From a virus, in the IMG/VR virus record IMGVR_UViG_3300025127_007751, positions 1 through 64,000 of that record: DNA of 64,000 bases. The stretch is one strand, 5' to 3'. The notes beneath the pieces were generated by a model. That model searched no databases. It was given only the letters and a program-made list of their open reading frames with translations, and had not been told where the DNA came from. The position numbers and the translations under genes are program-made. Below are positions 5,945 to 55,943 of the stretch, in pieces; the stretch's first letter is position 1; the number at the start of each line of letters is the position of its first letter.

Positions 5945-6322
5945 TTAATCTCTTTTATAATCGTCTTCTATTCTTACAATGTCATCTTCCCCAAAATATT
6001 CCCCAGTTTGAACTTCAATAAAAATTACATCTTTATCTGTTTCATTCCAAGCCCTATGTTTAGTTCCTAAAGGGATATGAATTGACTCACCAGGATATCT
6101 AAATACTTTATCATCATCAATAATAATAGTCAAATTACCTTCCACTACAACCCATTCTTCCCTTCGTTTAGTATGATACTGGTAAGATAATCTTTGACCA
6201 GGTTTTACTCTTATTCTTTTTACTTTAACTTTAGGATCATCTAAAAGTATCTGGTATTCCCCCCATGGTCTTATTTGTTCTGGATTAGGTAATGAATCCC
6301 ACCATGTATTTAATATTGTCAT
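5945..6322 (-). CDS. cupin, mannose-6-phosphate isomerase type II-like
   Basis: A single-domain cupin of 125 residues matching the C-terminal domain of bifunctional GDP-mannose pyrophosphorylase/phosphomannose isomerases. Seen: RPWGEYQILL, KVKRIRVKPGQRLSYQYHTKRREEWVVVEG with metal-ligand spacing H-x(n)-E, then the second cupin block GESIHIPLGTKHRAWN. The family interconverts sugar phosphates or binds nucleotide sugars; with no nucleotidyltransferase domain here the substrate is uncertain. It overlaps the polymerase N-terminal gene by 4 bases (ATGA). A sugar enzyme wedged between polymerase halves is unexpected; it might feed the sugar pathway inferred from the heptose genes, which is speculation. 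Confidence 0.88.
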   Translation of the reverse strand: MTILNTWWDSLPNPEQIRPWGEYQILLDDPKVKVKRIRVKPGQRLSYQYHTKRREEWVVVEGNLTIIIDDDKVFRYPGESIHIPLGTKHRAWNETDKDVIFIEVQTGEYFGEDDIVRIEDDYKRD

Positions 6323-9940: not shown

Positions 9941-9944
9941 ATCT

Positions 9945-10457
9945 TTACTTATCAATATAATATTCTTTTTTTAATTGTTCAACCCATTTTTTAAGTCTTT
10001 CCTGTGTAAGTTCGGGTTGATTATCTTCATCTAAACATAAACCATAGAAAGTACTAGCATCAACTAATGACTTGGGGGTTTCATCTAAGTCATATGAGTC
10101 ATCGTTTTCCGTATAACCAATAACTTTGCCTCCATTTTCTATAATAACTTCAGCTAATATACCTATACCATCACAAAACCATTCTTCATATCCTAATTGA
10201 TCTCCTAAACCAAAAATAGCCACTGTTTTATCTGTAAAATCTATTGTTTTAAATTCTTCAAAATAATCTTCCCAATCACTTTGAAGCTCACCATCATACC
10301 AAGTAGGTATGCCTAATATAAATTTATCATGATCCCAATCTTCCAGAGTTAAATCTGCAACAGTAGTAACATCAATACCATCTATTAACTTAGTTATATC
10401 TTCAGTAACTAATTCTGTATTACCAGTATCAGAACCATAAATCAATTTTATACGCAT
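9945..10457 (-). CDS. fld: flavodoxin
   Basis: 170 residues. The FMN phosphate loop GSDTGNTE is near residues 8-15, aromatic isoalloxazine contacts are in IPTWYDGELQSDWEDY and FGLGDQLGYEEWFCDG, and the length matches long-chain flavodoxins. Flavodoxin delivers low-potential electrons; bacterial QueE is a radical-SAM enzyme reduced by flavodoxin, and queE starts right next to this gene with a 10-base overlap. I infer that it powers QueE. An alternative role is to help the ribonucleotide reductase. Confidence 0.96.
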   Translation of the reverse strand: MRIKLIYGSDTGNTELVTEDITKLIDGIDVTTVADLTLEDWDHDKFILGIPTWYDGELQSDWEDYFEEFKTIDFTDKTVAIFGLGDQLGYEEWFCDGIGILAEVIIENGGKVIGYTENDDSYDLDETPKSLVDASTFYGLCLDEDNQPELTQERLKKWVEQLKKEYYIDK

Positions 10458-11230
10458 CTTTCAGTATTAAATGCCATAATATGAGAACGGCCTGTAAAAC
10501 GCCATCCTTTATCTCTGACAAAATTCATAACAATTGGATAGGATTCAAATAATGAATCTCTATCATCACCAGCAGGCATAGCCCAAATTTTTTCTGCTGG
10601 TATGTTTAATTTTTCTATCATTTCATCTACTTCGGGAACCATAGATAATTCTTTATCTATTACAGGTTTAATATGATAATCAGAATGATAATCAATAGAT
10701 TGCTTAATAGCATCTAAATTCATTCTTTTTGAATTATGCTTTTTAACCATTTTCTCATCTACTGTTTCTCCCTGAGGTGTTACAGCTCCCACCACTGGAA
10801 TACTGTTGCTAAACTTAGGACTAATAGATAACAGATTAATAGGATAATCGGTAGGTAGGAAATGGGATCCTTCTGTTTCAATCGTGATAAAAATTTCTCT
10901 ATCATGAGCAAAATGGGTTAGTTCATTTACTAAAGCAGGATGCATTGTGGGAGAACCTCCTGTTAGCATCATTTCTTTAATATGAGGATGCTTATCATAC
11001 ATGTCAATAATATCTTGAAAATTATAAGTACCTTTCTCTGGATGAATACTTGTATACCAAGAATCACACCATCCTCCTTCTCCAAAATAACATCTATGAG
11101 TGCATCCTGTTGTTCTAACAACAATTGTTGGGTAACCCTGTCTGGAACCTTCTGATTGTACTGCTGTATATAATTCTAATACAGGAAGTGTTTTTTGATA
11201 GTCACCTATCCTTTTTAATTTTCTGTGCAT
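10448..11230 (-). CDS. queE: 7-carboxy-7-deazaguanine synthase QueE (radical SAM)
   Basis: 260 residues. QueE converts 6-carboxytetrahydropterin to 7-carboxy-7-deazaguanine using S-adenosylmethionine and a 4Fe-4S cluster. Seen: the substrate segment LYTAVQSEGSRQGYPTIVVR, the cluster cysteines C43, C47 and C55, the MMLTGGSPTMHP loop that binds SAM, and IETEGS. The cysteine spacing is C-x3-C-x7-C instead of the usual C-x3-C-x2-C: five extra residues (FGEGG region) sit between the second and third cysteine, ahead of the family's W-C-D. Everything else fits QueE. The gene overlaps flavodoxin by 10 bases. Confidence 0.94.
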   Translation of the reverse strand: MHRKLKRIGDYQKTLPVLELYTAVQSEGSRQGYPTIVVRTTGCTHRCYFGEGGWCDSWYTSIHPEKGTYNFQDIIDMYDKHPHIKEMMLTGGSPTMHPALVNELTHFAHDREIFITIETEGSHFLPTDYPINLLSISPKFSNSIPVVGAVTPQGETVDEKMVKKHNSKRMNLDAIKQSIDYHSDYHIKPVIDKELSMVPEVDEMIEKLNIPAEKIWAMPAGDDRDSLFESYPIVMNFVRDKGWRFTGRSHIMAFNTERCV

Positions 11231-12172: not shown

Positions 12173-12861
12173 AATTTAACTTTTTGATATATTAATTTAA
12201 CATTATTACCTACTAAGTCCTTACTTAATTTTCTCCAATTACTATTACCTTCTTCAATATAATGGTAAACATTACTACCCTTACCAATAATAGGATAATT
12301 AATTGTAACTTTTTCTATATCACCTTTTCTTTCTGGTGGAGTATCATAAGTATATTCTACCCAAGTATTCATAAACCAATTATCATCTATAATTAAAACA
12401 GAACCAATGGGCATTTTATTTTCAATTGCTATAAATTCCCTCCAACAATGTAATGCAGATGGAAAAGGATTTTTTATATTAATATCATAAGAATCTAAAT
12501 GAACTAAATTAGGAATAACTTTAGTATTATTTAAAAATTCTACAGAATCCCCAACATTGTGGTTTACCTTTAAATTTAAATTTTTATAAAATTTTTTACT
12601 TTTATTTACTACTGAATTAGAAATATCAACTGAATGAAACTCACCTCCTGTCAACTCACTTAATTTAGCAAAAAATGCCCCAAAACAACCGTCATTAATA
12701 TCCTGAGATGCTCCTGTTTCTATACAATTAATTTTGCCAGGAGAAAAAAGAGGTAAAATATCTAAAAGATTAGTTAATTGGTTTTTTCTCCAGGGGGTTA
12801 ATTTAAAATGTTTTTTAAAAAAATCAGCAGCCTCAAAAACGGGATGTTTAAATTTTTTCAT
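12169..12861 (-). CDS. SAM-dependent methyltransferase-like protein
   Basis: 230 residues with a Rossmann-like order: INCIETGAS (motif I position), FHSVDIS (acidic end of strand 2), NVGDSVEFL, LVHLDSYD and VLIIDDNW. This matches class I methyltransferases of the Methyltransf_24 kind, often found near glycan or natural-product genes. The glycine-rich loop is weak (ETGAS), so catalytic activity is uncertain. No DNA-methylase N/DPPY motif is present. It lies in the preQ0 operon region. Confidence 0.65.
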   Translation of the reverse strand: MKKFKHPVFEAADFFKKHFKLTPWRKNQLTNLLDILPLFSPGKINCIETGASQDINDGCFGAFFAKLSELTGGEFHSVDISNSVVNKSKKFYKNLNLKVNHNVGDSVEFLNNTKVIPNLVHLDSYDINIKNPFPSALHCWREFIAIENKMPIGSVLIIDDNWFMNTWVEYTYDTPPERKGDIEKVTINYPIIGKGSNVYHYIEEGNSNWRKLSKDLVGNNVKLIYQKVKL

Positions 12862-13057
12862 TATCTTTATCCTTTAAATTACTATTATAATCTAATATAA
12901 ATCCTACCGCTACTATCAAATTCATACTAATAGAAGATAAAATTTCTATAGCATCGTGAAAGTTATGAATAGATAAATGGATATGACCAACAACCCAAAA
13001 AGGTATAGCTAAATTTTGACTTATCCAAATTAATAAAAATTTTATAAAATCTTTCAT
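12848..13057 (-). CDS. small membrane protein
   Basis: 69 residues with two hydrophobic stretches (FIKFLLIWISQNLAIPFWVV, then SISMNLIVAVGFIL) and a charged tail. It overlaps the methyltransferase-like gene by 14 bases and starts 12 bases after the tRNA 3' end. No family recognised; the call rests on packing and ATG start. Confidence 0.65.
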   Translation of the reverse strand: MKDFIKFLLIWISQNLAIPFWVVGHIHLSIHNFHDAIEILSSISMNLIVAVGFILDYNSNLKDKDNEKI

Positions 13058-13069
13058 ATTAAAAATTTG

Positions 13070-13142
13070 TTGGCTCGCTAGGGATCGAACCTAGACTCTT
13101 CTGGACCAAAACCAGACGTGTTGCCAGTTACACCACGAGCCA
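13070..13142 (-). tRNA. trnQ: tRNA-Gln (anticodon UUG)
   Basis: On the minus strand a 73-base cloverleaf: acceptor TGGCTCG pairs with CGAGCCA, anticodon stem TCTGG/CCAGA encloses loop TTTTGGT with anticodon TTG, and the T arm contains GGTTCGATCC. Discriminator base is A; CCA is not encoded. It reads CAA codons. It lies between queC and a small membrane gene, but is not itself a queuosine target, since those have GUN anticodons. Confidence 0.96.
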
Positions 13143-13149
13143 AGTGTAT

Positions 13150-13944
13150 TTATGCTGAATAATCAGCTAATACTTTCTCAACTGAAGCTTTTGCCACTTC
13201 ATAAGAAACAGGTCCCGTTTCATCTTCATATTGAACGGGATCAGGTCTTCCTAATGCTATAAATGCTTCGATTCTCTCAACTGATGATGCTGATTTATAA
13301 TCAGAATTACCACTTGGATAAGGTTTATAAGATGTATTTGTTCTCTTATATACTTCATCAAAGTCAATATCTAATACACCACAAAGATATTCTCCATCCT
13401 GTAATATACCATACTTGTCAGTATCAAGATAAGGTGTAAAATAACCTACTCTTTCAGCTTCCCAATTACCAATCCTAAAAGCTGCATCATCTGCATCTCT
13501 AAATTCTTGTCTACAATCAGGATAAACCGCATGATCACCAGCATGTATTCCTAAACAAATATCAACTTGCTCCTGTGTAGCATTTGCTTTAGATAAAGCA
13601 ACTGCCTGTGTAATAGAAGCAAACATTTTATTTCTATTAGGTACTACTGTTTCTTTCATATTTTCTTGCTCGTAATGACCTTCTGGAACATCATCTCCAC
13701 CTTGTACTAAGGCTGAGTTTAATAAGTCAACTAAACCATCAAGTTTAATTTGCTTATATGTTACATTATGTCCTTTACTAGCTAAATAATCTATAAGAGA
13801 CTGTGCTCTTTCTAATTCAACTCTATGCTTTTGACCATAATCAAAAGATAAAGCTGTTACTGAATCATACTCAGATAACGCTCTAAGTAAAAGTGTGGAA
13901 CTATCCATCCCGCCACTTAGCGAAACAACTGCATGTTTACTCAT
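13150..13944 (-). CDS. queC: 7-cyano-7-deazaguanine (preQ0) synthase QueC, zinc site lost
   Basis: 264 residues. The ATP-pyrophosphatase loop SGGMDSS is at residues 10-16, and ALSFDYGQKHRVEL, VVPNRNKMFAS and LGIHAGDHAVYPDCR follow as in QueC, which turns 7-carboxy-7-deazaguanine into preQ0 with ammonia and ATP. The C-terminal zinc site is replaced: where the family has T-W-S-C-Y and C-G-K-C-G-T-C-V-E-R, this protein has TNTSY (S205) and DYKSASSVER (D215, S218, S221). All four ligand positions are thus non-cysteine while the surrounding residues are kept. The rest looks active. It follows dpdA by about 60 bases. Confidence 0.93.
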   Translation of the reverse strand: MSKHAVVSLSGGMDSSTLLLRALSEYDSVTALSFDYGQKHRVELERAQSLIDYLASKGHNVTYKQIKLDGLVDLLNSALVQGGDDVPEGHYEQENMKETVVPNRNKMFASITQAVALSKANATQEQVDICLGIHAGDHAVYPDCRQEFRDADDAAFRIGNWEAERVGYFTPYLDTDKYGILQDGEYLCGVLDIDFDEVYKRTNTSYKPYPSGNSDYKSASSVERIEAFIALGRPDPVQYEDETGPVSYEVAKASVEKVLADYSA

Positions 13945-27937: not shown

Positions 27938-28669
27938 TTAAATAATTACTACTCCTTTTTTTTCAATAACTTCTAAGGCACATTCTTGTGCATAATTAAT
28001 ACTTTCAATTAAACTGCTTCCATTAAGAAGTTGAAAAATAAAAGCAGCGAAAAAAGTATCTCCGGCACCAGATAAATCTGAAACCTCAGCTTGTCTTGGT
28101 GGTGGTAAAATAGTATTTTTATATCTTACTCCTTTTTCACCTAATGTAATTAATAATTCCCCTTTTAATTTTAAATTAGAAATTTTACTTTCATTATTTT
28201 CAAATTCGGTTTCATTTATTTTAATAAATGAGGCATTATTAATCCATTCACCAAATATTTTTTTAGTATCTATAAAAGAAATAGGATATAAATTAACTAA
28301 TTTTTCAATATCTTCCTCTTGTAGAAAACCTTTATTATAATCACTAATAATAACTACATCAAATTTACCTATTTCTTCAATATTTTTTATTCTTTCACAC
28401 TGGTCATTTTCATCAACTCTAAGTAACATTTGATTAGTTTTAATGTCAACTAATCTTGTTTTTTCTATTTTAGTATCATTAGTTAATAATTTAATATTCC
28501 AATCAGGGGCTAAGCTTTTTAAGTTATTATAAACATTTTTAGCCATACCTCCATTTTCTGTTCTATTTATAGGGTTAAAAACAGGAACTGGTGCCTCGGG
28601 GCAAATTCTTTTACATTCACCGTAAATAAATTTATCTTTACAACTGTCTCCTACAACTAATACTTTCAT
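27938..28669 (-). CDS. hldE1: heptose-7-phosphate kinase, HldE N-domain-like (PfkB family)
   Basis: 243 residues. The opening VLVVGDSCKDKFIYGECKRICPEAPVPVF matches the G-D-x-x-x-D ... R-I-S-P-E-A-P-V-P-V signature of the HldE/RfaE kinase domain, and DLSGAGDTFFAAF near the end is the PfkB catalytic G-A-G-D. HldE phosphorylates D-glycero-beta-D-manno-heptose 7-phosphate at C1. About 70 residues shorter than the usual ~315, with the middle lid region reduced. It overlaps the nucleotidyltransferase gene by 4 bases; in bacteria the two domains are normally fused. It is thought to feed the heptosyltransferase at 45181-47439. Confidence 0.85.
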   Translation of the reverse strand: MKVLVVGDSCKDKFIYGECKRICPEAPVPVFNPINRTENGGMAKNVYNNLKSLAPDWNIKLLTNDTKIEKTRLVDIKTNQMLLRVDENDQCERIKNIEEIGKFDVVIISDYNKGFLQEEDIEKLVNLYPISFIDTKKIFGEWINNASFIKINETEFENNESKISNLKLKGELLITLGEKGVRYKNTILPPPRQAEVSDLSGAGDTFFAAFIFQLLNGSSLIESINYAQECALEVIEKKGVVII

Positions 28670-29049
28670 TTATTTAATAAATTTGAAGTTGAATAATCAC
28701 CAATTCTATCGAAATATACAATTTTTTTAGCATATTGCCCACCTACTATTTCTTTTCCCTTCCAATCACTCCCAACAACTAAAACATCAGGTTTAGTTAT
28801 TTCTACTAACCATTCTAAATGGTCTTTATTATCAAAAACCATTACTTTATCTATAGCCTTTAAACTTTCTAAAGCATAAACTCTATCTTCTAAATTGTTA
28901 TATGGTCTATCTGGTCCTTTATCTTGTGATATTTTTTCATCTGAGTCAATGCCTACTATAAGTTCATTGCCCAAAGACTTAGCATAATTAAATAATTCAA
29001 AATGACCTCTGTGGAGAATATCAAAACAACCATTTACCCAAATTTTCAT
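28666..29049 (-). CDS. hldE2: heptose-1-phosphate adenylyltransferase, HldE C-domain-like
   Basis: 127 residues. Motifs of cytidylyltransferase-like enzymes: NGCFDILHRGH (residues 6-16, nucleotide-binding H-x-G-H), the middle block VGSDWKGKEIVGGQYAKKIVYFD, and the end block STSNLL (I-S-T-S type). This is the C-terminal half of HldE, which makes ADP-heptose from heptose-1-phosphate and ATP. A glycerol-3-phosphate cytidylyltransferase would look similar, but pairing with the kinase favours HldE. Coupled to the kinase by an ATGA overlap. Confidence 0.85.
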   Translation of the reverse strand: MKIWVNGCFDILHRGHFELFNYAKSLGNELIVGIDSDEKISQDKGPDRPYNNLEDRVYALESLKAIDKVMVFDNKDHLEWLVEITKPDVLVVGSDWKGKEIVGGQYAKKIVYFDRIGDYSTSNLLNK

Positions 29050-42768: not shown

Positions 42769-44835
42769 TTACGCTGGGAATGTTGCCCCTGTTGGTAATA
42801 CATTGAAATCTAGTATAATAAATTCAGCTGTTTTAGTTGGTTGTAGGAATATTTGACCTATCAACTCATTTCTATCTATTACATCTGGTGTATTATTACT
42901 TTCATCCATTACTACTTTAAAGGCATACAATCCTTGTCTTTGTTGTACACTTTCTAAATATGGGTTAACTTGCGTTAAGAAATTCTGTCTTGTTGCTATT
43001 GTATTTTGTTCAAATACTAAATTATCAGCAATCTGAGATATGAAATCTTTAAGTGCAATTAACAATCTTCTAACATTAACTCTATCTAAAGCACTAGCTG
43101 CTTTTTGTAGTGTTTTCTGACCAAATACTACTACGCCCTGTTGTGGGAATGTAGCTAATGGGTTTACATTTGCTTCATATAATGTATCTCTATTACCTGA
43201 AGTTAATTTTCTTTCAGCTCTAACAACTTGACCTAATCCTCCTCTTGTTATACCAGCTGGTGCAAACCAAGGATCACTAGAAGCATCTGTAAATGCATAT
43301 ACACCAGGCATTAATGTTGATGCTGGTACATATACTAATTGAGCCGTATTAGGATCTACTGTTTGAACCCAAGGCCAATAAGTTGAAGCATAACTAGAAT
43401 CAAATGACGCAGCCTGTTGTGTTACAGTACCTATTTGAGAATTATAATTAACTAAATCTACAATAGCAATTGCATCACCTCTTGCTACAGTATTGTTAAC
43501 TAAACTTGTTATTTGAGTAGCTCCAGTATCACTATTAGCATTTATTAAACCAGGTATTGTAATTACATTATATTGGTAAGCATCTGTATTGGCTAATAAA
43601 GCTATAGCATTATTATAATCTGAACCTTTTAATCCTTGAGCATTACTATTATTAATAAATTGGTAAAAATGAGATCCATTAGCACCATAACCTACTCCCG
43701 GGATATTTGAACCAGAAGCACCACCAAAAGAACCTGATGAAACTAAAGGTAAACTTGGGAAAAATTCACTTTTAGCTGATCCATCATTATTGAAATAATT
43801 AGGTGTAGGTTTATTAACGGCTTTAACCCTTACATAATTAGAAATATTAGGGAAAGAACCGGATTCTTGGATAAATGTTTCACCTCCTTGAGTTACTAAA
43901 TTTTTATCAACATCACCTATTACTCTAGAAATATAATTATTAGCAAATGGATCTAATGATACATTATTATAAGATTCTAAAACAACTTTTTGGTTGTTAT
44001 TATCATTACCTCTTCTTATAATTAAAGAAAATACACCTGATCCTGAGTTTACATTTGTTACTTCCCATCTAACATTATCTTCACTTCCGGATATTAAAGC
44101 TCCATTACCATCAACTACTTCACCACTATCATTGTCCATTATTATACCTTCCGAAATTGTTTCTAATTCAAAAGAAGATGTATAATTAAATAATCCAATT
44201 ACTTGTGATACTCCTTGACCAGGTAAGGTGATAGATAAATCAACACCGTCAGCTGTATTGGATATAGATGATGAATCAATAGTTAATATATCACCTGGGG
44301 AATAATTTTCACCAGGTAAATTTATTTGAATAGCAGATGAACCTGAACCACCAGCATCTATAGTAATATCTACCGTAGCTCCATCTCCATTTCCTGTTGA
44401 AGAAGTTAAAGGAACTTCAGTATAAGCACCCACAGAACCCGAAAATGTTCCATTATTAATAGTAAATGAAGCTATACTTGCACTTATGTTAAAATTATTA
44501 CTAAATGGATTATCCTCTGTTATAACTGCAGAAGATGTAGCTGGAGTAAATGATCCAGATACTACTCTTGTTACTAATAAAGATTCACCTCCATTTTGGA
44601 AGTAGTTATTTGCTGATATTGAAGTTAGATAAGAATATTGATTTGATCCACTTTCTAATGCCCCACCAAAAATAGCTTGAAATGAACTAAAGGAACTTAC
44701 TAATGTAGGAATTTCTACTGGTCCTTTAACAGTTGGACCTATAATCGCTGCTCCCCTAGCTAATGGTTGACTAGTAACGAAAGATTGATCATTTTCTCTT
44801 GCTAATACTCCAGGAGATAATAATGTTTCTGCCAT
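42769..44835 (-). CDS. 18: contractile tail sheath protein gp18
   Basis: 688 residues (T4 gp18 has 659). N-terminus LLSPGVLARENDQSFVTSQPLARGAAIIGPTVKGPVEIPTLV is the standard sheath opening; the C-terminal third has APAGITRGGLGQVVRAERKLTSGNRDTLYEANVNPLATFPQQGVVVFGQKTL and VRRLLIALKDFISQIADNLVFEQN, the conserved core. The middle (about 150-420) is a variable, Ser/Gly/Asn-rich surface domain. It contracts to drive the tube through the envelope. A late-type element lies 27 bases upstream. Confidence 0.96.
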   Translation of the reverse strand: MAETLLSPGVLARENDQSFVTSQPLARGAAIIGPTVKGPVEIPTLVSSFSSFQAIFGGALESGSNQYSYLTSISANNYFQNGGESLLVTRVVSGSFTPATSSAVITEDNPFSNNFNISASIASFTINNGTFSGSVGAYTEVPLTSSTGNGDGATVDITIDAGGSGSSAIQINLPGENYSPGDILTIDSSSISNTADGVDLSITLPGQGVSQVIGLFNYTSSFELETISEGIIMDNDSGEVVDGNGALISGSEDNVRWEVTNVNSGSGVFSLIIRRGNDNNNQKVVLESYNNVSLDPFANNYISRVIGDVDKNLVTQGGETFIQESGSFPNISNYVRVKAVNKPTPNYFNNDGSAKSEFFPSLPLVSSGSFGGASGSNIPGVGYGANGSHFYQFINNSNAQGLKGSDYNNAIALLANTDAYQYNVITIPGLINANSDTGATQITSLVNNTVARGDAIAIVDLVNYNSQIGTVTQQAASFDSSYASTYWPWVQTVDPNTAQLVYVPASTLMPGVYAFTDASSDPWFAPAGITRGGLGQVVRAERKLTSGNRDTLYEANVNPLATFPQQGVVVFGQKTLQKAASALDRVNVRRLLIALKDFISQIADNLVFEQNTIATRQNFLTQVNPYLESVQQRQGLYAFKVVMDESNNTPDVIDRNELIGQIFLQPTKTAEFIILDFNVLPTGATFPA

Positions 44836-45180: not shown

Positions 45181-47439
45181 TTAGGTTAATAACCTAAGTG
45201 CCTCCTCTAATACCCTATCTGGGGTAATAGACTTTTGGCAAATATGCTGTAATTCTGTTCCTTTGTTAATAGGACACCAATTCCAATCTCCAGCATCAAA
45301 TTGAAATTCTTTTTTATTCCAACAACTATTACAAACATTAAAGTTTTGTAATTTAGTTATATTTTTTGTAAATTCATGATCGGGCTCAGTAAAATTATTA
45401 ATCATTAATGTATGCTTATTTAGTGCCCAATTTATCCAAGATAAACCCGAACCTAAACCTATAAATAAATCTGCATGATATAAGTAATTAAATAATTCAT
45501 TCCAAGGTAAGTTATGTCTATCTATAATATTTATTCCTTTAAACCCATTTTTACTTAGCGCAACAATATTATAACCTTTACTATACAACTTTTTAGATAA
45601 TTGCTTCCAATTTTTATGAGTCCATTCTTTGCATGCGGCAGTTGCTTGAGGGCCTATACAAATGTATTTATTTTTTAAGGGTCTTTCACCAGGTGTAAAA
45701 TCTACTCCATAATTAATTTCTTCAAAATCTAAACCTAATATATCAGAAGCTGATTTGATTAATGGTACTGTTTGAGGTAAAGTAGGATTTAAATTACCAT
45801 TATCCCATTTTCCCTTATTACTAAACCAACCCACTTTATAATGAGCATAACAAACAAAACTACTTCCGGGATTAATAAATTTAATATCCTTATATTCCTT
45901 TAAATTTTCAAACCAATAATTATGAAATGTACTAAGAACTAATTTACAATTATATTTATTTTTAAATTTTACTGCTTGAGGAACCCAAGCTAAGGTATCT
46001 CCTATTGATTTGGAATCAATAGCAATATAAACTACTTGATTTTCTAAATTTAACTTATGTACTATTTCACCATTAATTTTTATTACCCAAGGAATATAAT
46101 ATTCTTTATTACATTTAGTCCACATATTATTACTAATAGTATCACTAAAAATTAGTTCATTTGTATCTCCATTAATAAACTCAACAAAATAATTATTTTT
46201 TTCATTGCCCTTAATTTCTACAAAAGGTCCATTAGTAAAATTTATTATTAATTCATTTTTTTCTTGATAATTATTTAAAAAAGTAGTTAATTCATTATTA
46301 GCAATTTCTGCAACTCTATCCCAATTATAATTTTTATGAATTAATTTAGCATCCTTTATTGCCTGTTTTTTATGTTTTTTATAATTTTTATAAGCATCCC
46401 TCATTACTAATGATAAATCATCAAAATCAGGCTCATAATAATTACCAGGTATGGATTTGGGAGCAGGGATTTCTTTTTTTATTTTTACCGGAAGTCCTTT
46501 ATTTTTTGCAAATTCCAACTGGCCCGAACAATTAGAATATATAGATGGAGTTCCACAAGCCATAGCCTCAATTAGAGGTAAATTCCAACCTTCACTTCTA
46601 GCACAAGATAAGAATATATGTCCTTTTTTTAAATATTTTATATAATCCTCTCTAGATACAAAAGATTTAAACTTTAACCTAGGATCATTAGGTATATTAT
46701 ACTTTTTAATTCTTTCTTCAGTTGTATTACAACCATCTAAATCTTTACCAAAGATATTATCTACTGATAGTATTAAATCAACTGGTTCAGAAGGATCAAA
46801 GGTAGATAAAAAAGTTTTAATTATTTCAGTAGTAGATTTTCTATATTCCCATCTACCAAAAAGAACAAATTTAAATCGTCCGTCATAATCTTTATGTTCA
46901 ATATTATCGTTAGGATAAAAAGTATTTACATCTACACCTTCAGGAATTACTTTTACTTTATTAGGACTAGCACCTTGTTTAATAGTATTATCTGCTTGCC
47001 ATTTAGTTGGTACCCATAATTGGTCAAATTCTAACCATTTATTAAAAAAATCTTCTGGTTGTTTAGTTGATTCCCATACATTATAACCTATTTTAGGACC
47101 TAAATAATCATGGTAATAATAATGATGATTAGTTTCTTGAAGTACTATATTTATATTATGATTAAAATTATTTAAAGTATTAGAATAAATGGGTTGATCT
47201 ATTAGATCTTTTCCATTCCATAATGTTTGAATATTTAATAATTTTTTATCTACACTATTAATATAACTTTCACTATTATGGGGTTCGTCATTTAATTCAT
47301 TCCATGTATTACCTACAGTAAAATTTCTTATTTTGACTTTAGCTAGTTTGGATAAATGTCTAAAAAAACTACGGGAGTGTGCATTATAACCCGTATTCCC
47401 AATATAACTAGTATGAGCAAATATATGAGGTTTAGTCAT
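45181..47439 (-). CDS. two-domain glycosyltransferase: GT4 plus BAHT-type O-heptosyltransferase
   Basis: 752 residues in two enzymes. Residues 1-395: GT4 glycosyltransferase with GNTGYNAHSRSFFRHL, VIPEGVD (165-170), FGRWEYRKS and the donor site ARSEGWNLPLIEAMACGTPSI (280-300). Residues 396-752 match the bacterial autotransporter heptosyltransferase family (TibC/AAH): a beta domain (INFTNGPFVEIKG... YYIPWVIKI, 399-455), then the GT9 part YIAIDSKSIGDTLAWVPQ (471-488), YICIGPQATAACKEW and GLGSGLSWINWAL, and four cysteines C703-x2-C706-x15-C722-x11-C734 around DWNWCP and CQKSITP, as in the iron finger of TibC. TibC moves heptose from ADP-heptose to Ser of repeat proteins. It directly follows the Ser-rich fibre genes. 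Confidence 0.82.
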   Translation of the reverse strand: MTKPHIFAHTSYIGNTGYNAHSRSFFRHLSKLAKVKIRNFTVGNTWNELNDEPHNSESYINSVDKKLLNIQTLWNGKDLIDQPIYSNTLNNFNHNINIVLQETNHHYYYHDYLGPKIGYNVWESTKQPEDFFNKWLEFDQLWVPTKWQADNTIKQGASPNKVKVIPEGVDVNTFYPNDNIEHKDYDGRFKFVLFGRWEYRKSTTEIIKTFLSTFDPSEPVDLILSVDNIFGKDLDGCNTTEERIKKYNIPNDPRLKFKSFVSREDYIKYLKKGHIFLSCARSEGWNLPLIEAMACGTPSIYSNCSGQLEFAKNKGLPVKIKKEIPAPKSIPGNYYEPDFDDLSLVMRDAYKNYKKHKKQAIKDAKLIHKNYNWDRVAEIANNELTTFLNNYQEKNELIINFTNGPFVEIKGNEKNNYFVEFINGDTNELIFSDTISNNMWTKCNKEYYIPWVIKINGEIVHKLNLENQVVYIAIDSKSIGDTLAWVPQAVKFKNKYNCKLVLSTFHNYWFENLKEYKDIKFINPGSSFVCYAHYKVGWFSNKGKWDNGNLNPTLPQTVPLIKSASDILGLDFEEINYGVDFTPGERPLKNKYICIGPQATAACKEWTHKNWKQLSKKLYSKGYNIVALSKNGFKGINIIDRHNLPWNELFNYLYHADLFIGLGSGLSWINWALNKHTLMINNFTEPDHEFTKNITKLQNFNVCNSCWNKKEFQFDAGDWNWCPINKGTELQHICQKSITPDRVLEEALRLLT

Positions 47440-47495: not shown

Positions 47496-47804
47496 TTACC
47501 AAGGTAATCCAATCGCTTTGGGGTGATCAAAATCAATAATAATCTGATTAATAGAAGCTGAATTGTTAGTTTTTAAAGTATCTACATCTAAACTACCAGT
47601 AAACCAACTTAAAACCTTAGATTCATTTAAGTCTTCATAATTAATAAAATCACTATCCGAAACTGAACCAGTAGTTAAGGTAATTTCATCATTAATTTCT
47701 ACTGAGTGGGAATTATGTATAGTTTGAAAGCTATAAAAAACTTTATCCACCATACCAGTGTTTTGATTACGTTCTAAATTATCTATAATCCAATTATGTT
47801 CCAT
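47496..47804 (-). CDS. short virion-associated protein (..GLPW end)
   Basis: 102 residues: HNWIIDNLERNQNTGMVDKVFYSF, then YEDLNESKVLSWFTGSL and the end AIGLPW. This matches a family of short phage proteins (strand-rich N-terminus, Y-E-D-L-x-E-x-x-V-L-x-W helix, P-x-P-W-like end) commonly encoded beside tail fibres. Function unknown. Starts 14 bases after the giant fibre gene. Confidence 0.7.
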   Translation of the reverse strand: MEHNWIIDNLERNQNTGMVDKVFYSFQTIHNSHSVEINDEITLTTGSVSDSDFINYEDLNESKVLSWFTGSLDVDTLKTNNSASINQIIIDFDHPKAIGLPW

Positions 47805-47817
47805 TTTTTATTAATTT

Positions 47818-50800
47818 TTAAAAGGAGCTACCATCGAAAATTTTATATCTTAATTTAACAGCAATACTAATACATCTAGTTCCTAAATTACTTAAACCAC
47901 TACCAAAAAATATAGTAGTATCCGTGTTTTCTGAGTAAACCCTTTGCTGTAGAGGAATATCTCTATAATACATGGCAAAGGTATTAGTTTGCCCCTCTAA
48001 TTGTAACCATTGATTTATGGTAGTGGCTGGCACTTGAGAGACAGTATTACTACTATTGTTAACGGTACCCTGTCTAACTACTATATTACCACTTGTTGTA
48101 GGTAGTGTACCAGATCCTGGATTCATTTTACATAAGAAAAATGTTTCTGTTATTACACAAAAAAGATTTGAACCAGGATTAGACATTAAGTTTTGTGATC
48201 CTCCCGCTATTATTGTAGATCTAGGAAATGTATAAGTGGATTCCATCATATCCCTAACAACTTCTCCACTTGTATTAACACCTAAGGTATTAACAGTTCC
48301 ATTATTATTTTGTTGTCCAGTTGGGAAAGAAGATCCACTAGCAGCAAATGAATAACCATTAAATTTAACAGCAGTATTTAGCACCTCCATTGCTGGAGTA
48401 TTATTAGTATTTATTTTAAGTGCTCCAGAATTAGTAGTTATTTCATTACCACCTGAACTATGTATAATTCTTAAATCATAATCATCACTTGCAGGGGCTT
48501 TAAAATCTATAAATCCACCACTAGAACCACCGACCTCTACGGCCGCAAAACCACCAGCATTAGTTAAAGTTAAAACACCACCAGATAAAGTACTTGACTC
48601 AACTGTAACATTAGGAGAAGACCCATTTAAAGTTAAAATACCATTATCCGTTGTTCCAGATAAAGTTACAGTACCACTAGAACCACTTGTACCACTTGAA
48701 CCAGAAGTTCCACTTGATCCAGAAGTACCTGGGTTACCATCTCCACCAGAAGAACCACTTGTACCACTTGAACCAGAAGTTCCACTTGATCCAGAAGTAC
48801 CTGGGTTACCATCTCCACCAGAAGAACCACTTGTACCTGAAGAACCTGAAGTACCATCACCACCAGAACTACCACTTGTACCGGAAGAACCAGAAGTACC
48901 ATCAGAACCGTCTCCACCTGATGAACCTGAAGTACCGGAAGAACCTGATGTACCAGAATTACCTGAAGATCCACTTGAACCACTAGTTCCATTATTACCA
49001 CTTAATATAAACCCTATTGCATCACCATCTGAAAATATTGCCCCAGATCCAGTTGATGAATCCGTAGTACAAGTTAATATTTGAGTATTTGAACTATAAC
49101 TTGCATTAGCTGTTACATTTAAAACTATAAAAGAAGTAGGACTGGAAACTTTATAAAGTCCCAATTTGACATTATTAGTACCAATAGAAGAAAGTATATT
49201 AGCTATACTAGCATTATTAATATTTTCTTTACTTATTCGTAAAGAGTTAATAGTACTATTATCATTATTAGAAGTACTTCCAAATTGGAATTCTCCAGAA
49301 GACTGATTTGAAGGTGATCCTGTACTATATCCATCAAATTCAGATTCAAAAATAAATTTAGGTAAACCGGAAGAACCACTAGAACCCGATGTACCACTTG
49401 AGCCACTAGTTCCAGAAGAACCACTTGTACCAGAAGAACCAGAAGTACCAGAGTTACCTGAGGAACCACTTGTACCACTTGAACCTGACGTACCTGAACC
49501 ACCTGAAGATCCACTTGTACCAGAAGAACCTGATGTACCATCTCCACCAGAAGAACCAGATGTACCAGAAGAACCTGATGTACCAGAAGAACCTGATGTG
49601 CCCGAATTACCACTTGAACCAGAAGTTCCACTTGAACCAGAAGTACCATCTGAACCATCACCACCAGAACTACCACTTGTACCACTTGAACCACTTGTTC
49701 CTGAATTACCAGAAGAACCCGAAGTACCTGAAGAACCACTAGTACCTGGTGAACCATCACCACCTGATGAACCTGAAGTACCAGAAGAACCTGAAGTACC
49801 TGAATTACCTGATGAACCAGATGTACCAGAAGATCCAGAAGTACCTGTATTACCAGAAGAACCAGAAGTACCTGATGAACCACTTGTACCTGAAGAACCC
49901 GCTCCTGCTGGGCCTTCTATAACATTACCACTTGAATCAACTTGTAAAGTTTTGGCTGCAGTACCAGTAAAGTTTCCTGATCCATATCCATTAAGTTTTA
50001 ATTGTTGGGTTGAAGCTAATCTAAGAGCTTCAACTAAAGTTCCTGAGGAATTCATTGTTGAAACTTTAAAGTAACCATCTTCACTACTTGCGGCTCCACT
50101 TTCAGCAAAACCTCCAATTTGAGCTCTTTCTATTTCATTAGTAGTTGAATTTCTGTTACTACTAAAAGAAATTATTCCTCCAGTATTTGATGTTTCAAAC
50201 TCACTATCATATATTTTTAGCCCTGCTAATGTGTCAAATGAATCTCTTTCATAAGTTATTTTTTGAGAACCACTTAAATTTAACGAACCTGTCATATTTA
50301 AATTAGTACCATCAAAAGTTAACTTAGCTTCTGCATTTAATTCACCTGCTATACCTGTTGCAGTTGTAACTCTATTATTAATATTATTATAAATTATAGC
50401 CGAACCACTAGAACCAGAAGAACCACTTGTACCACTAGACCCGGAAGTTCCACTTGAGCCACTAGTTCCAGAATTACCCGAAGATCCCGAAGTACCTGAA
50501 GAACCTGAAGTACCAGAATTACCACTTGAGCCAGAAGTACCAGATGAACCACTTGTACCAGAGTTACCACTTGAACCGCTTGTTCCAGATGAGCCACTTG
50601 TTCCAGAAGAACCACTTGTTCCTGAGTTACCACTTGAACCCGAAGAACCTGATGTACCTGAATTACCAGATGAACCAGAAGAACCAGATGTACCTGAAGA
50701 ACCTGAAGTACCACTTGAACCCGATGTACCACTATCTCCCTTATCACCTGTAACTACAAAGGAAACTACTATTGCTTCTCCAGCACTAAAAGGAGAAGTA

Positions 50801-52983
50801 GCTGATGATGCTTGTTCACCTATATTTATTGTCCAATAAGTACCTTGGTCTGTTAGATCTGAAATAGAAAATAATATAAAGTTTTCTTCAGCAAATTTAT
50901 CAGCCATTCGCATATGACCTTTTACTGCTGAGGTTGAGCTATCTATTGTTTGTAAAAATGATTCAATACTATCACCATCCGCAGTTGTTTGGGAAATGGC
51001 TGCAATGGTTGAAGTATTTTGATTTGATTGATTTAATCTTATATCCCCATTCCCTGGGTCCGCACCAATATTTGTGTTAGCTTCAAAATCATAATTAAAG
51101 GAAGCACCACCAAAGTTACCATCTTGACCTGATGTACCACTTGATCCACTTGTTCCAGAGTTACCTGATGAACCACTAGTACCTGAGGAGCCGCTTGTAC
51201 CAGAATTACCACTTGAACCGGAAGTACCACTTGAACCAGAAGTTCCAGATGAGCCACTTGTACCAGAATTACCACTTGAACCAGAAGAACCTGATGTACC
51301 AGAATTACCTGAAGAACCTGAAGTACCAGAAGAACCAGAAGTACCATCAGAGCCGTCTCCCCCTGATGAACCTGAAGTACCACTTGAACCAGATGTACCA
51401 GAATTTCCAGAAGAACCACTTGTGCCACTTGAACCTGATGTTCCTGAATTACCTGATGAGCCACTTGTACCACTAGATCCTGAAGTACCTGAGTTACCTG
51501 AAGAACCACTTGTTCCACTAGAGCCTGATGTTCCTGAAGAACCTGCTCCAGCTGGGCCCTCTATAATATTACCACTAGCGTCTACTTGTAGTGTTTTTGT
51601 TGCCGTTCCAGTGTAAGTACCAGAACCATATTCATTAAATATTATTTGACCAGTATCGTTTATAGTAAAAGCTTGGGTAGCTGAGCCTGCCTCAGTAGAT
51701 CTATAAGCCCATTGAAGTTTACCATTAGAATCTATTTCTTGAGTCCAAATTTTAACTCCATCCCTTGATTGTCTAATACCTGATTTTGCAGCAGTAGAAC
51801 CACTAAGATGTAATTTACTTCTAGGAGTAAGTGATCCAATACCTAAATTTCCATTATGTGAAAGAAACATTTTAGCTGTTACACCATCACTACCAGTAGT
51901 AGAAAATTTAATACCACCTAATGAACTGAAATCATCTAAAGGTGAAGAGAAAGTAGTAAAGTTAACAACAAAAGTATTTTTTTCATTACTTTCATCATCC
52001 CAACCAAATCCAGCTTTATTTACACCATCTTGGACTAAAGTAACTTGAGGATCATAAGTTGTATCACTAGAAGTAACAGATATTTGTAAGTTTTTATTAT
52101 CTGGATCATAATATAAAAATTCATTTAAACTTTCTGTATCAATAACTAATAAATAACCATCATTAATTCTTGTATTACCATTAACCCTTAACCTATTACT
52201 TGCGTTTATAGCCGTTCCAACTGCCAGATTTGTACCATCAAAAAGTAAATTAGCTTCAGCATTTAGTTCACCTTGAACTCCAGTTGAAGTTGTTACACGA
52301 TTATCCCCTAAATTTGTTATTGTTGCAGTTCCACTTGAACCCGAAGAACCTGATGTACCTGAAGAACCTGAGGTACCACTTGATCCACTAGTACCAGAGT
52401 TACCACTTGAACCAGAAGTTCCACTAGAACCACTAGTTCCAGAATTACCACTAGATCCTGAAGTACCACTAGATCCAGAAGAGCCACTTGTTCCGCTTGA
52501 ACCAGAAGTACCAGAGTTACCTGAGGAACCACTTGTTCCACTTGAACCTGATGTTCCGGAAGAACCTGCTCCTGCTGGTCCTTCTATTATATTTCCAGAA
52601 GAATCAACTTGTAATGTTTTAGTAGCTGTACCAGTATAAGTTCCTGATCCGTATTTGTTGAATTTTATTTGACCACTATTTAATATTTGTTGACTAGTAT
52701 CATTATTAGTTTCAAAATCAATATCCGAACTTAATTCTAATTTAGAACCATCCGAGTTATTGGTCTCAAGTGCTATATTACCTACGTTATTTATTAAATT
52801 TGCATCACCACCTGGTTCAAGAACAAGTTTATTAAAATCTGTTGGTGAATCAATATCAGTTCCTATTACTGCGTTAGCGGAACTACCACCGGTGTAAGAA
52901 GAAGCTGTAACTTGGCCAGTTACATTTAGAGTATTTAAGTGAGCGTCAGAACCGCTAGTTATTACTTTTTTCCAATTTGGCAT
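47818..52983 (-). CDS. giant tail fibre with five collagen-like Ser/Thr repeat regions
   Basis: 1721 residues. N-terminus MPNWKKVITSGSDAHL is shared with the fibre at 53499-54518 and probably binds the baseplate. Five Gly-X-Y regions (GTS, GSS, GNS, GGD, GSD triplets, nearly no proline) lie at about 139-218, 477-623, 745-862, 1024-1205 and 1327-1437, separated by globular beta modules; the lead-in YTGTATKTLQVDSSGNIIEG occurs three times. The C-terminal ~200 residues (from about STYTFPRS) have no repeats and are the likely receptor-binding tip. The triplets would form a trimeric helical shaft rich in hydroxyl groups, a plausible substrate for the glycosyltransferase downstream. Confidence 0.88.
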   Translation of the reverse strand: MPNWKKVITSGSDAHLNTLNVTGQVTASSYTGGSSANAVIGTDIDSPTDFNKLVLEPGGDANLINNVGNIALETNNSDGSKLELSSDIDFETNNDTSQQILNSGQIKFNKYGSGTYTGTATKTLQVDSSGNIIEGPAGAGSSGTSGSSGTSGSSGNSGTSGSSGTSGSSGSSGTSGSSGNSGTSGSSGTSGSSGNSGTSGSSGTSGSSGTSGSSGSSGTATITNLGDNRVTTSTGVQGELNAEANLLFDGTNLAVGTAINASNRLRVNGNTRINDGYLLVIDTESLNEFLYYDPDNKNLQISVTSSDTTYDPQVTLVQDGVNKAGFGWDDESNEKNTFVVNFTTFSSPLDDFSSLGGIKFSTTGSDGVTAKMFLSHNGNLGIGSLTPRSKLHLSGSTAAKSGIRQSRDGVKIWTQEIDSNGKLQWAYRSTEAGSATQAFTINDTGQIIFNEYGSGTYTGTATKTLQVDASGNIIEGPAGAGSSGTSGSSGTSGSSGNSGTSGSSGTSGSSGNSGTSGSSGTSGSSGNSGTSGSSGTSGSSGGDGSDGTSGSSGTSGSSGNSGTSGSSGSSGNSGTSGSSGTSGSSGTSGSSGNSGTSGSSGTSGSSGNSGTSGSSGTSGQDGNFGGASFNYDFEANTNIGADPGNGDIRLNQSNQNTSTIAAISQTTADGDSIESFLQTIDSSTSAVKGHMRMADKFAEENFILFSISDLTDQGTYWTINIGEQASSATSPFSAGEAIVVSFVVTGDKGDSGTSGSSGTSGSSGTSGSSGSSGNSGTSGSSGSSGNSGTSGSSGTSGSSGTSGSSGNSGTSGSSGTSGSSGNSGTSGSSGTSGSSGNSGTSGSSGTSGSSGTSGSSGSSGSAIIYNNINNRVTTATGIAGELNAEAKLTFDGTNLNMTGSLNLSGSQKITYERDSFDTLAGLKIYDSEFETSNTGGIISFSSNRNSTTNEIERAQIGGFAESGAASSEDGYFKVSTMNSSGTLVEALRLASTQQLKLNGYGSGNFTGTAAKTLQVDSSGNVIEGPAGAGSSGTSGSSGTSGSSGNTGTSGSSGTSGSSGNSGTSGSSGTSGSSGGDGSPGTSGSSGTSGSSGNSGTSGSSGTSGSSGGDGSDGTSGSSGTSGSSGNSGTSGSSGTSGSSGTSGSSGGDGTSGSSGTSGSSGGSGTSGSSGTSGSSGNSGTSGSSGTSGSSGTSGSSGTSGSSGSSGLPKFIFESEFDGYSTGSPSNQSSGEFQFGSTSNNDNSTINSLRISKENINNASIANILSSIGTNNVKLGLYKVSSPTSFIVLNVTANASYSSNTQILTCTTDSSTGSGAIFSDGDAIGFILSGNNGTSGSSGSSGNSGTSGSSGTSGSSGGDGSDGTSGSSGTSGSSGGDGTSGSSGTSGSSGGDGNPGTSGSSGTSGSSGTSGSSGGDGNPGTSGSSGTSGSSGTSGSSGTVTLSGTTDNGILTLNGSSPNVTVESSTLSGGVLTLTNAGGFAAVEVGGSSGGFIDFKAPASDDYDLRIIHSSGGNEITTNSGALKINTNNTPAMEVLNTAVKFNGYSFAASGSSFPTGQQNNNGTVNTLGVNTSGEVVRDMMESTYTFPRSTIIAGGSQNLMSNPGSNLFCVITETFFLCKMNPGSGTLPTTSGNIVVRQGTVNNSSNTVSQVPATTINQWLQLEGQTNTFAMYYRDIPLQQRVYSENTDTTIFFGSGLSNLGTRCISIAVKLRYKIFDGSSF
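48672..49003. repeat. tandem repeat encoding Gly-X-Y region V
   Basis: Imperfect 9- and 18-base units (GGTACTTCTGGATCAAGT type on the minus strand) encode GTS-GSS triplets. Synonymous changes between units suggest selection keeps the protein repeat while the DNA drifts. Confidence 0.9.
49369..49915. repeat. tandem repeat encoding Gly-X-Y region IV
   Basis: Longest repeat block, about 180 codons of GTS/GSS/GNS/GGD triplets. The opposite strand reads as false Pro/Glu/Val-rich or Leu/Gln-rich frames that should not be annotated as genes. Confidence 0.9.
50398..50750. repeat. tandem repeat encoding Gly-X-Y region III
   Basis: About 118 codons, mainly GTS, GSS and GNS triplets, preceded by a GDKGDS collagen-like lead. 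Confidence 0.9.
51116..51555. repeat. tandem repeat encoding Gly-X-Y region II
   Basis: About 145 codons of GTS/GSS/GNS/GGD triplets following a GPAGAG lead. Confidence 0.9.
52330..52569. repeat. tandem repeat encoding Gly-X-Y region I
   Basis: 80 codons of GTS/GSS/GNS triplets directly after GPAGAG. Confidence 0.9.
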
Positions 52984-53498: not shown

Positions 53499-54518
53499 TT
53501 AAGAATATATAAAGATGTCTTGTGATGATGAAACAAAAATATTACCCTTTTTAACATATTGTGAGGCAATAGTTCCTGTTTGATCAGCACCACTTCCACC
53601 TACTACTACAGCTGCCATAAATGCATCTGGTGTAAATGCTGCTGAGCCATCTCCAGCGTCAAACGATGAAGTAACTGCCCATCTTGTTGTACCTGCATCG
53701 TATGCAAATAATTCACCTTTATCTTGTGTTGTTTGTTGTACAACTATACCACCATCTCCAACTGTAGTTGAACCAGAAGCTAATAGTACAAACCTATCCT
53801 TAACTAATAAATTTTCTGTATTTCTAAATGAGGCAGTACCATCAACAGTTAAATCATGAGTAATAATAACATCACCTGTAACTGTTAATAATCCATTACC
53901 ATCGGAACCTCCCGCACTAGCAAAAGTTAAATTTTCTTCAGCATTTAACTCTCCTGGGGTACCTGTTGAAGTAGTTACTCTATCATTTCCTTCATTAGTA
54001 ATAGTAGCAGCACCACTAGAACCTGAAGAACCACTTGAACCACTTGTACCAGAAGAACCACTTGTTCCTGAGTTACCACTTGAACCTGAGGTACCACTTG
54101 AACCACTTGTTCCTGCAGCACCAGAAGAACCTGAGGTACCACTTGAACCAGAAGTACCGTCATCACCAGCTTCACCAGAAGAACCACTAGTTCCAGAAGA
54201 ACCACTTGTACCAGAAGAACCAGAAGTACCAGAATCACCTGAAGATCCACTTGTACCACTTGAACCGGAAGTACCAGAATTACCTGAAGAACCTGAAGTA
54301 CCACTTGAACCACTTGTTCCCGAATTACCTGAAGAACCTGATGTACCTGAAGAGCCACTTGTACCCGAAGATGCAGCGTTTTCTCTTGTACCAACTACAC
54401 CTGAGGGGTTAATTGTTAGTACTGTGTCTTCACTGCCTTGTGTTGATAAATTAGATAGGGATAATTGAGCTAATTCAGCATTAGATCCACTAACTATTAC
54501 TTTTTTCCAATTTGCCAT
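53499..54518 (-). CDS. tail fibre with one collagen-like Ser/Thr region
   Basis: 339 residues. N-terminus MANWKKVIVSGSNAELAQL matches the giant fibre, so both may mount on the same site. Gly-X-Y triplets (GTS/GSS/GNS, one GEAGDDG break) run from about residue 49 to 171. The module TITNEGNDRVTTSTGTPGELNAEENL follows, also present in the giant fibre (ITNLGDNRVTTSTG..., NNINNRVTTATG...). The C-terminal 150 residues are beta-rich (GDVIITHDLTVDGTASF). Probably a shorter, alternative fibre or adaptor. Confidence 0.85.
   Translation of the reverse strand: MANWKKVIVSGSNAELAQLSLSNLSTQGSEDTVLTINPSGVVGTRENAASSGTSGSSGTSGSSGNSGTSGSSGTSGSSGNSGTSGSSGTSGSSGDSGTSGSSGTSGSSGTSGSSGEAGDDGTSGSSGTSGSSGAAGTSGSSGTSGSSGNSGTSGSSGTSGSSGSSGSSGAATITNEGNDRVTTSTGTPGELNAEENLTFASAGGSDGNGLLTVTGDVIITHDLTVDGTASFRNTENLLVKDRFVLLASGSTTVGDGGIVVQQTTQDKGELFAYDAGTTRWAVTSSFDAGDGSAAFTPDAFMAAVVVGGSGADQTGTIASQYVKKGNIFVSSSQDIFIYS
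54006..54371. repeat. tandem repeat encoding the Gly-X-Y region of the short fibre
   Basis: About 122 codons of GTS/GSS/GNS triplets with the same DNA units as in the giant fibre, so recombination between the two genes is possible. Confidence 0.9.
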
Positions 54519-54956: not shown

Positions 54957-55943
54957 TTAATTTTTTAATTCAGTTCCCGGGGTTATATCCGAAATACTTG
55001 ATACATTACCTATATTATCTCTATTTCTTCTTGTTCTTCCATCTTTTGTTTTAGTTACACCCTCATCAAAAATTTCTGAGTTTGCTGTTGTTTCCATTTG
55101 AACAATAAACTTAGATTTGGAATTAAATTTAGAAATTGAGTGCATTTCTTTTTGTATTGTATCAGGTATTATATACCCATATAATCTTATATTAAATGTT
55201 CCTTTTACTATTCTATCAGAACCTAAGTTAGATTGTGTTGTTGTTTCAAAACTATCTATAAAGGCTCTAAATTTAAATCTTTCTGGATTGCCCCAATAAG
55301 CATCTGAAGCATATTCACAAGCTTCTATAATTTTATTTAACTGTTCCATATAGTAAGTTTGTATTAAACAACTATATTCTAAAGTTAGATAATCAGGCAC
55401 TGCAACAGCATAGTATTGTTTTGCAGGGATTTTATTATTTATAGCAGAAAAATTACTATAAAAGTTTTTTGGATTATAAGCTCTTTGAAACGATGCATAC
55501 AGATTAGGATCATTAGCATCCAATTTATTATATACAGTTCTATTTTTTGTAACTGTATTTCTTTTAGCTACAATAATAGGTAACATTATTGCACCTTTTT
55601 TATCTCTATAATAACCATCTCTTTGAAAAGATTTCCATCTTTCTGGTGATCCATAAATTATTGGTACATTTCTTCTTTCTCCATTTTGATAAACAAATGG
55701 TTTAATAACTTCTTTAAAATAAAAAAATACGGCTTCATCTATATCTTTTAATCCAATAGAAAAGGGTTTTGATGTATCATTTTTCCAAGATAATTTTTCG
55801 GATCTATTGAATGGAATACCAGTTTCATTTTCATTAGTAGGTAATGGAATATTAGGATTACCATATCTTGGATCAGTAGGCCTTTGTTGGTCTATACTAA
55901 TTTGCTTTTGTGTTTTAGGTATTGGTTTTCTTATTCTTGCCAT
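54957..55943 (-). CDS. 15: proximal tail sheath stabiliser, gp15-like
   Basis: 328 residues. VFFYFKEVIKPFVYQNGERRNVPIIYGSPERWK and GAIMLPIIVAKRNT, then LTLEYSCLIQTYYMEQLNKIIEACEYAS and GTFNIRLYGYIIP correspond in order to T4 gp15 (residues RVPITYASKEHF, LPRINL, YELSIFTRYEDDMFQIVEQIL, WSLTFEVNGWMYP). Gp15 forms the terminator ring at the top of the tail. The C-terminal 50 residues are polar and variable. Overlaps gp14 by 1 base. Confidence 0.82.
   Translation of the reverse strand: MARIRKPIPKTQKQISIDQQRPTDPRYGNPNIPLPTNENETGIPFNRSEKLSWKNDTSKPFSIGLKDIDEAVFFYFKEVIKPFVYQNGERRNVPIIYGSPERWKSFQRDGYYRDKKGAIMLPIIVAKRNTVTKNRTVYNKLDANDPNLYASFQRAYNPKNFYSNFSAINNKIPAKQYYAVAVPDYLTLEYSCLIQTYYMEQLNKIIEACEYASDAYWGNPERFKFRAFIDSFETTTQSNLGSDRIVKGTFNIRLYGYIIPDTIQKEMHSISKFNSKSKFIVQMETTANSEIFDEGVTKTKDGRTRRNRDNIGNVSSISDITPGTELKN

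Follow-up and report, generated by a model that had tools for sequence, protein, structure and literature searches.

Why should a marine phage carry, next to the genes of its tail, one protein composed of two glycosyltransferases? The question is raised by a stretch of 64,000 nucleotides (called here the window) from a 64,967-base virus record, a marine phage of T4-like myovirus character, as judged by genes of sheath, tail tube, gp32-like protein, ribonucleotide reductase and PolB-type polymerase. The polymerase (569 aa, 6319-8028) matches no more than roughly the first half of the domain model for polymerases and is possibly split; a Cpn60 chaperonin of 551 aa is also phage-encoded (1118-2773). 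Among named matches to the tail sheath, that of Flavobacterium phage immuto is the best (46% identity), and a search at the DNA level returned no named relatives. The gene in question is located on the minus strand at 45181..47439 (ATG at 47439, stop at 45181) and encodes a protein of 752 aa (P0001), while the plus strand of the same segment contains many stops and no open frame. The answer that we consider reasonably probable is an enzyme with two active sites, which would transfer heptose onto serines of the phage's own collagen-like fibres and then add a second sugar with its GT4 half.

The chain begins with a GT4 domain (aa 1-392, 46264..47439, minus strand), recognised by Pfam PF00534 (2.2e-12) and by Foldseek as a GT4/GT-B fold, with an E-x7-E motif at E283/E291 in the Glycos_transf_1 half that is kept in all fused relatives aligned. 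It is followed, on the same strand, by a TibC N-terminal beta domain (aa 396-462, 46054..46254), which is defined by the TIGR04414 match from residue 397 and by the strands of the model (Pfam TibC_1st gives here a weak 13 bits, under its cut-off of 27), by a GT9-like catalytic domain (aa 469-702, 45334..46035; PF01075 1.4e-10 and the TibC residue columns), and by a four-cysteine finger (aa 703-734, 45238..45333). Residues 397-746 score 226.1 bits against NCBIfam TIGR04414 (hepto_Aah_TibC), above the curated cut-off of 200; six of the seven relatives scored against the same model reach 166-194 bits and stay below it. The heptsyl_trn_I profile gives the C-terminal half 30 bits only, against 226 for TIGR04414, and TibC structure 4rap matches this half with E = 6e-38 in a PDB sequence search. 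The AlphaFold model of the full chain has a mean pLDDT of 83.5 and a pTM of 0.57, because of which the placement of the two halves relative to each other is uncertain; it bears on the folds and not on acceptor or sugar. Foldseek with this model finds TibC (4rap, TMt 0.80, E 3e-26) and, separately from that match, GT4-type GT-B folds (3oy2 with TMt 0.68, MshA, HepE and SdgB). That one chain holds two glycosyltransferase folds independent of each other, and that the second one is TibC-like, had been proposed in an earlier note on this DNA, and both points are upheld, the former by HMM, PDB and structure searches, the latter by the TIGR04414, 4rap and Foldseek matches; the same note spoke of a polymerising enzyme, in favour of which there is no sequence feature.

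In TibC the catalytic base is Asp110, the donor residues are Thr226, Lys230, Trp305 and Arg286, the last contacting adenine N1, and iron is held by Cys339/342/358/370 with spacings x2, x15 and x11; the enzyme acts on serine, not threonine, and its beta-hairpin thumb is required for the dodecamer (PMC4358343). In the columns of TibC, the fusion protein has D481 at D110, T600 at T226, K604 at K230 and W668 at W305. All 25 phage sequences compared share D481, K604 and W668, and the position of T600 is occupied by T or S, that is, the catalytic base and three of the four donor-binding residues are conserved across the set. The position of Arg286 is L649 in the fusion protein and Leu, Thr or Val across the fused clade, and Arg was noticed only in two loci, L037 and L042 (loci are numbered here with the prefix L). 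The donor nucleotide may differ from that of TibC, as Arg286 is replaced. The cysteines C703-x2-C706-x15-C722-x11-C734 align without gap to the TibC iron ligands (4rap alignment) and all three spacings are identical; the finger had been correctly likened to TibC before, with the last spacing wrongly called shorter, since x11 is the last spacing of TibC itself. Of 25 aligned phage sequences, 24 retain all four cysteines, and in L029 (9989-12289) they are jointly replaced by N, I, D and A with D481 and the fold motifs remaining, a joint loss which fits one metal site. The thumb hairpin is about 10 residues shorter than in TibC (270-279 missing), and a short thumb is found also in those bacterial homologues that are linked to GTSGSS proteins. 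Judged from these residues, the fusion chain looks catalytically competent and metal-binding, and, because Arg286 is replaced and the thumb shortened, its base recognition and oligomer state are probably unlike those of TibC.

The fusion is common to about 35 viral contigs. Viral contigs yielded 45 loci on searching. About 31 of these align over most of the fusion length with 56-61% identity, the rest being fragments or TibC without this GT4; further ones came from a second sample, anchored on the tail tube. The architecture varies between relatives. L009 and L019 encode GT4-TibC-PIG-L deacetylase proteins of about 1245 aa (PIG-L at about aa 1055-1160), L034 has the order GT9-GT4-TibC, and Microcystis phage Mel-JY01, which is an isolate, combines GT4, a middle part annotated as FkbM methyltransferase, and TibC. 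A 640-aa "cytidylyltransferase-like" protein of Mel-JY01 was examined and could not be tied to heptose. In L035 and L036 GT4 and TibC are separate overlapping genes, and in L044 the partner gene of TibC encodes a GT4 plus methyltransferase protein. Because relatives split GT4 and TibC into overlapping genes or fuse further glycan-modifying domains, it is plausible on these gene architectures that the sugar put on by the TibC half is extended by GT4. Right behind the fusion gene, L021 has another GT9/TibC-like gene of smaller size (12259-13140). Genes of sulfotransferase, APS kinase and nucleotidyltransferase are located just upstream of GT4-TibC in L002 (7776-9803) and suggest a decorated, sulfated virion glycan.

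The enzyme and fibre genes are situated between neck and sheath both in the window and in relatives. The upstream boundary of this cassette is a neck-region protein (54957..55943, minus strand) of conserved position in relatives, labelled gp14-like for its place beside head/neck genes, and the downstream one is the tail sheath (42769..44835, minus strand, Pfam Phage_sheath). A small DUF7936 protein (47496..47804, minus strand, PF25590) separates the fibre and enzyme genes, and a similar one is present in the same cassette of L002, L024 and L224. In relatives with both boundaries visible, the fusion gene stands between the gp14-like gene and the sheath, and its place among virion genes is a conserved one.

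A second group of genes concerns the donor. The window contains two mutually overlapping minus-strand genes proposed for donor synthesis, one for an HldE C-domain-like nucleotidyltransferase (RfaE domain II, 127 aa, 28666..29049, TIGR02199 5e-32) and one for a short HldE N-domain-like PfkB kinase (RfaE domain I, 243 aa, 27938..28669, TIGR02198 4e-35, PfkB match 3.5e-17). Both score below the cut-offs of these models, which are still their best matches (110.6 bits against 181.5 for TIGR02199 and 121.5 against 345 for TIGR02198); no GmhA was found. TibC, HldE-C and HldE-N are consecutive with overlapping ends in L044 and L045, and L036 presents a run of GT4, TibC, HldE-C, HAD-like, cupin, HldE-N, a small gene and sheath. 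A mannose-6-phosphate isomerase-type cupin of the window (5945-6322, PF01050 6e-30) resembles the cupin of that L036 cluster.

Such genes could also be read as tools which alter host surface glycans (LPS or capsule) in infection and block superinfection. Both GT9 and GT4 count among the classic families of LPS enzymes, and HldE is an enzyme of the LPS-core pathway; moreover, in pelagimyophages, which are marine and T4-like, rfaE together with glycosyltransferases was earlier seen in this same region (the host-recognition cluster) and was interpreted as a means of host LPS change (PMC7029224). For the present enzyme this explanation is considered unlikely, since the C-terminal half is nearest to a protein O-heptosyltransferase and not to WaaC/WaaF (226 vs 30 bits), the TibC iron finger is retained, the gene of the window sits among virion genes adjoining fibres, and the bacterial homologues accompany small secreted repeat proteins.

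The phage's own fibres are of special interest as acceptors. Two collagen-like fibre genes, both upstream of the enzyme gene and both on the minus strand, encode the proposed substrates. The larger protein (1721 aa, 47818..52983, Pfam Collagen 1e-71, PF01391 236.9 bits) has 212 Gly-X-Y triplets, with Ser at Y in 188 of the 212, mostly Ser, Thr or Asn at X, and Pro at 4 of 424 X/Y positions. The smaller one (339 aa, 53499..54518, Pfam Collagen 3e-17, 62.7 bits) has 40 triplets, 36 of them with Ser at Y, and Pro is absent. Both are above the Pfam cut-off for the collagen Gly-X-Y repeat. As a Ser-rich collagen fibre adjoins the enzyme gene and HldE-like genes are present, these are the likely acceptor and donor source for the enzyme; the earlier note had overlooked both.

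The association was also seen in a sample anchored on the fibre and collected via its C-terminal, non-collagen domain; it comprised 80 loci in 38 clusters. Serine makes up at least 0.59 of X/Y positions in eight clusters, six of which have TibC while the other two end at a contig edge; in the remaining 30 clusters (Ser at most 0.18, one 0.39) TibC was found in none. This gives 6/6 against 0/27 assessable clusters, with p about 1e-6 when phylogeny is ignored. In the fibre tree the TibC-positive Ser-rich fibres form one clade (100/98), and the association in phages may stem from one event; since the statistic rests on a single clade, the weight was shifted to the bacterial link described below. 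In both of the long contigs tested, L090 (119 kb) and L120 (120 kb), TibC lies away from the fibre and a Ser-rich collagen is encoded elsewhere (Ser 0.64-0.65), and distant TibC lineages (L042, L073, L091, L102 and the Microcystis phage) have adjacent collagens with Ser of 0.37-0.57. Exceptions are L069, L074 and L101, TibC-positive yet with Pro-rich collagen (Ser about 0.01); L112 has one Ser-rich and one Pro-rich collagen, and L201 encodes a (GTSGTS)n fibre with TibC absent from its 68-kb contig. Universal adjacency of TibC and collagen was rejected, as at several loci TibC follows the gp14-like gene directly and the stretch examined shows no collagen. In L069 (3455-4069) and L074 (3495-4109) the TibC cassette includes an oxygenase of the 2OG-Fe(II) kind, similar to PKHD/prolyl hydroxylases, and a comparable 204-aa gene is present in L101, whose collagen is Pro-rich. 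The oxygenases of L069 and L074 are hinting at phage collagen hydroxylation, perhaps another route to the same end.

Evidence from bacteria was obtained by retrieving homologues with the TibC sequence alone, which gave 12 bacterial-genome contigs. One of them, L224, is a contig of viral origin within a MAG, and it was the only one of the 12 in which the GT4-TibC fusion was found; the TibC homologues of the others have 34-38% identity and carry no fused GT4 of this kind. In L227-L230 and L232-L234, TibC stands beside small secreted or lipoprotein-like proteins with runs of GTSGSS, GTSGTT or GSSGSS, the taxa being Methylobacter, Methylococcaceae, Polaromonas, Acidiferrobacterales, Arenicellales and two other Gammaproteobacteria. 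A Schekmanbacteria contig (L225) has a Ser-rich repeat protein about 5 kb from TibC, and no repeat protein was seen beside TibC at L231 or L235. Whole-genome queries with GTSGSS (E <= 1e-3) gave matches in four genomes of 2.6-6.1 Mb, all less than 1 kb from TibC, and the chance of all repeat matches falling within 1 kb of it is about 4e-13, on the understanding that weaker repeats elsewhere in those four genomes may fall under the threshold. Among relatives of the Acidiferrobacterales genome, only 2 of 369 were over the cut-off in a class-scale TibC search, a number too small for statistics. The bacterial link is independent of phage ancestry. TibC-family genes are connected in genomes with Gly-(Ser/Thr)-Ser repeat proteins as well as with HldE-like genes.

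It has to be considered whether the target is a different virion protein, or a region of the fibre outside the Gly-X-Ser repeats, with the Ser-rich collagen being mere shared ancestry. The single clade of TibC-positive fibres is in agreement with this, and so are the Pro-rich collagens coexisting with TibC in L069, L074 and L101 and the loci without a nearby collagen. The independent pairing of TibC with (GTSGSS)n proteins in bacteria, together with the Ser-containing collagens beside TibC of distant lineages, makes such a target quite unlikely.

We infer the acceptor, the donor sugar, the order of the two steps and the effect on the fibre as follows. The phage would modify its own collagen-like tail fibres during virion assembly. 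Heptose would be activated by the short HldE-like enzymes of the phage together with the host, the TibC-like half would O-heptosylate serines of the Gly-X-Ser repeats, mostly the serine at Y, and the GT4 half would then attach a second sugar. The outcome would be a hydrated, sugar-coated fibre holding its shape despite repeats that are almost without proline.

Heptosylation of fibres has to be set against a true BAHT acting on a host autotransporter and carried as a moron gene. TIGR04414 is named after autotransporter partners, and homologues of E. coli and of Salmonella plasmids are so annotated; nevertheless this origin is very improbable, because no autotransporter gene was found in the window or in the neighbourhoods of relatives that were read (the neighbours in the window being fibre, DUF7936, sheath and tube), the thumb is about 10 residues short and Arg286 is missing, both of them described as conserved in BAHTs. 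The window also contains FolE2 (8921-9955), radical SAM (10448-11230) and QueC (13150-13944) genes, which are likely a 7-deazaguanine pathway, perhaps with a role in DNA modification, and DNA-sugar transferases are frequent in phages. That the enzyme glycosylates modified phage DNA, a reading to which the deazaguanine genes lend themselves, is nonetheless hardly credible, as enzymes of the TibC family have serine in proteins as their acceptor (PMC4358343), the gene belongs to the virion module, a long way from the deazaguanine genes, and in bacteria the link is one to proteins that are secreted.

If the fibre is heptosylated as proposed, the range of TibC heptosyltransferases is no longer limited to the adhesins of bacteria and takes in phage particles as well as small proteins that are secreted; sugar-coated phage tail fibres then have a concrete enzyme, an acceptor and a pathway for the donor. 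It would also explain the possible stability of long collagen-like fibres with almost no proline, and a group of phage glycosyltransferase genes hitherto ascribed to host LPS change would gain a virion-assembly function. More tentatively, and with somewhat less confidence than in the enzyme itself, a second, so far undescribed class of TibC-type enzymes may be suggested, with short thumb and with Gly-(Ser/Thr)-Ser repeat proteins instead of autotransporters as substrates, in phage fibres and among small secreted proteins of bacteria. Its phage members would be multi-domain glycan assembly proteins with their own heptose-activation genes, and the proline-poor fibres would be stabilised by sugar instead of hydroxyproline; GT4, GT9, PIG-L deacetylase and methyltransferase are counted as partners, and one relative has genes of sulfotransferase and APS kinase close by. 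TibC, GT4, phage glycosyltransferases, phage rfaE and collagens bearing sugars are already known; the open literature searched yielded no account of a TibC-type fusion in a phage, of its link to Gly-X-Ser collagen or of the matching bacterial repeat proteins.

In comparison to known systems, the enzyme shares with the BAHTs TibC and AAH (TIGR04414; PDB 4rap, 4rb4) the fold (TMt 0.80), the catalytic Asp, the donor-site Thr, Lys and Trp and the cysteine spacing; in contrast to them it is fused to GT4, has a short thumb, is devoid of Arg286 and is encoded beside fibres instead of an autotransporter. With retaining GT4 glycosyltransferases (PDB 3oy2 of PBCV-NY2A, HepE, SdgB) it has in common the GT-B fold and E-x7-E, the difference being its fusion to a GT9-type protein glycosyltransferase. 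The ADP-heptose synthase HldE (RfaE) has homologues of both its domains in the window, and such genes stand by TibC in L044 and L036, but those of the window are two separate short proteins below the equivalog cut-offs with a shortened kinase domain. Virion glycosylation is described for mycobacteriophages Che8, Corndog and Myrna (Freeman et al. 2023, cited in PMC12363180), where a phage sugar-coats its own virion proteins, as is here proposed from genes; the glycosyltransferases and acceptors in that account are other ones, and no TibC fold or collagen repeat is reported in it. Glycosylated collagen-like proteins are represented by BclA of Bacillus spores and by mimivirus collagen (PMC8968730). 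Like the phage fibres they are built of collagen-like Gly-X-Y repeats, theirs carrying sugars and those of the phage being proposed to do so. BclA and mimivirus collagen have other acceptor residues and unrelated transferases, whereas the pairing in the phage is that of Gly-X-Ser repeats with a TibC-type enzyme.
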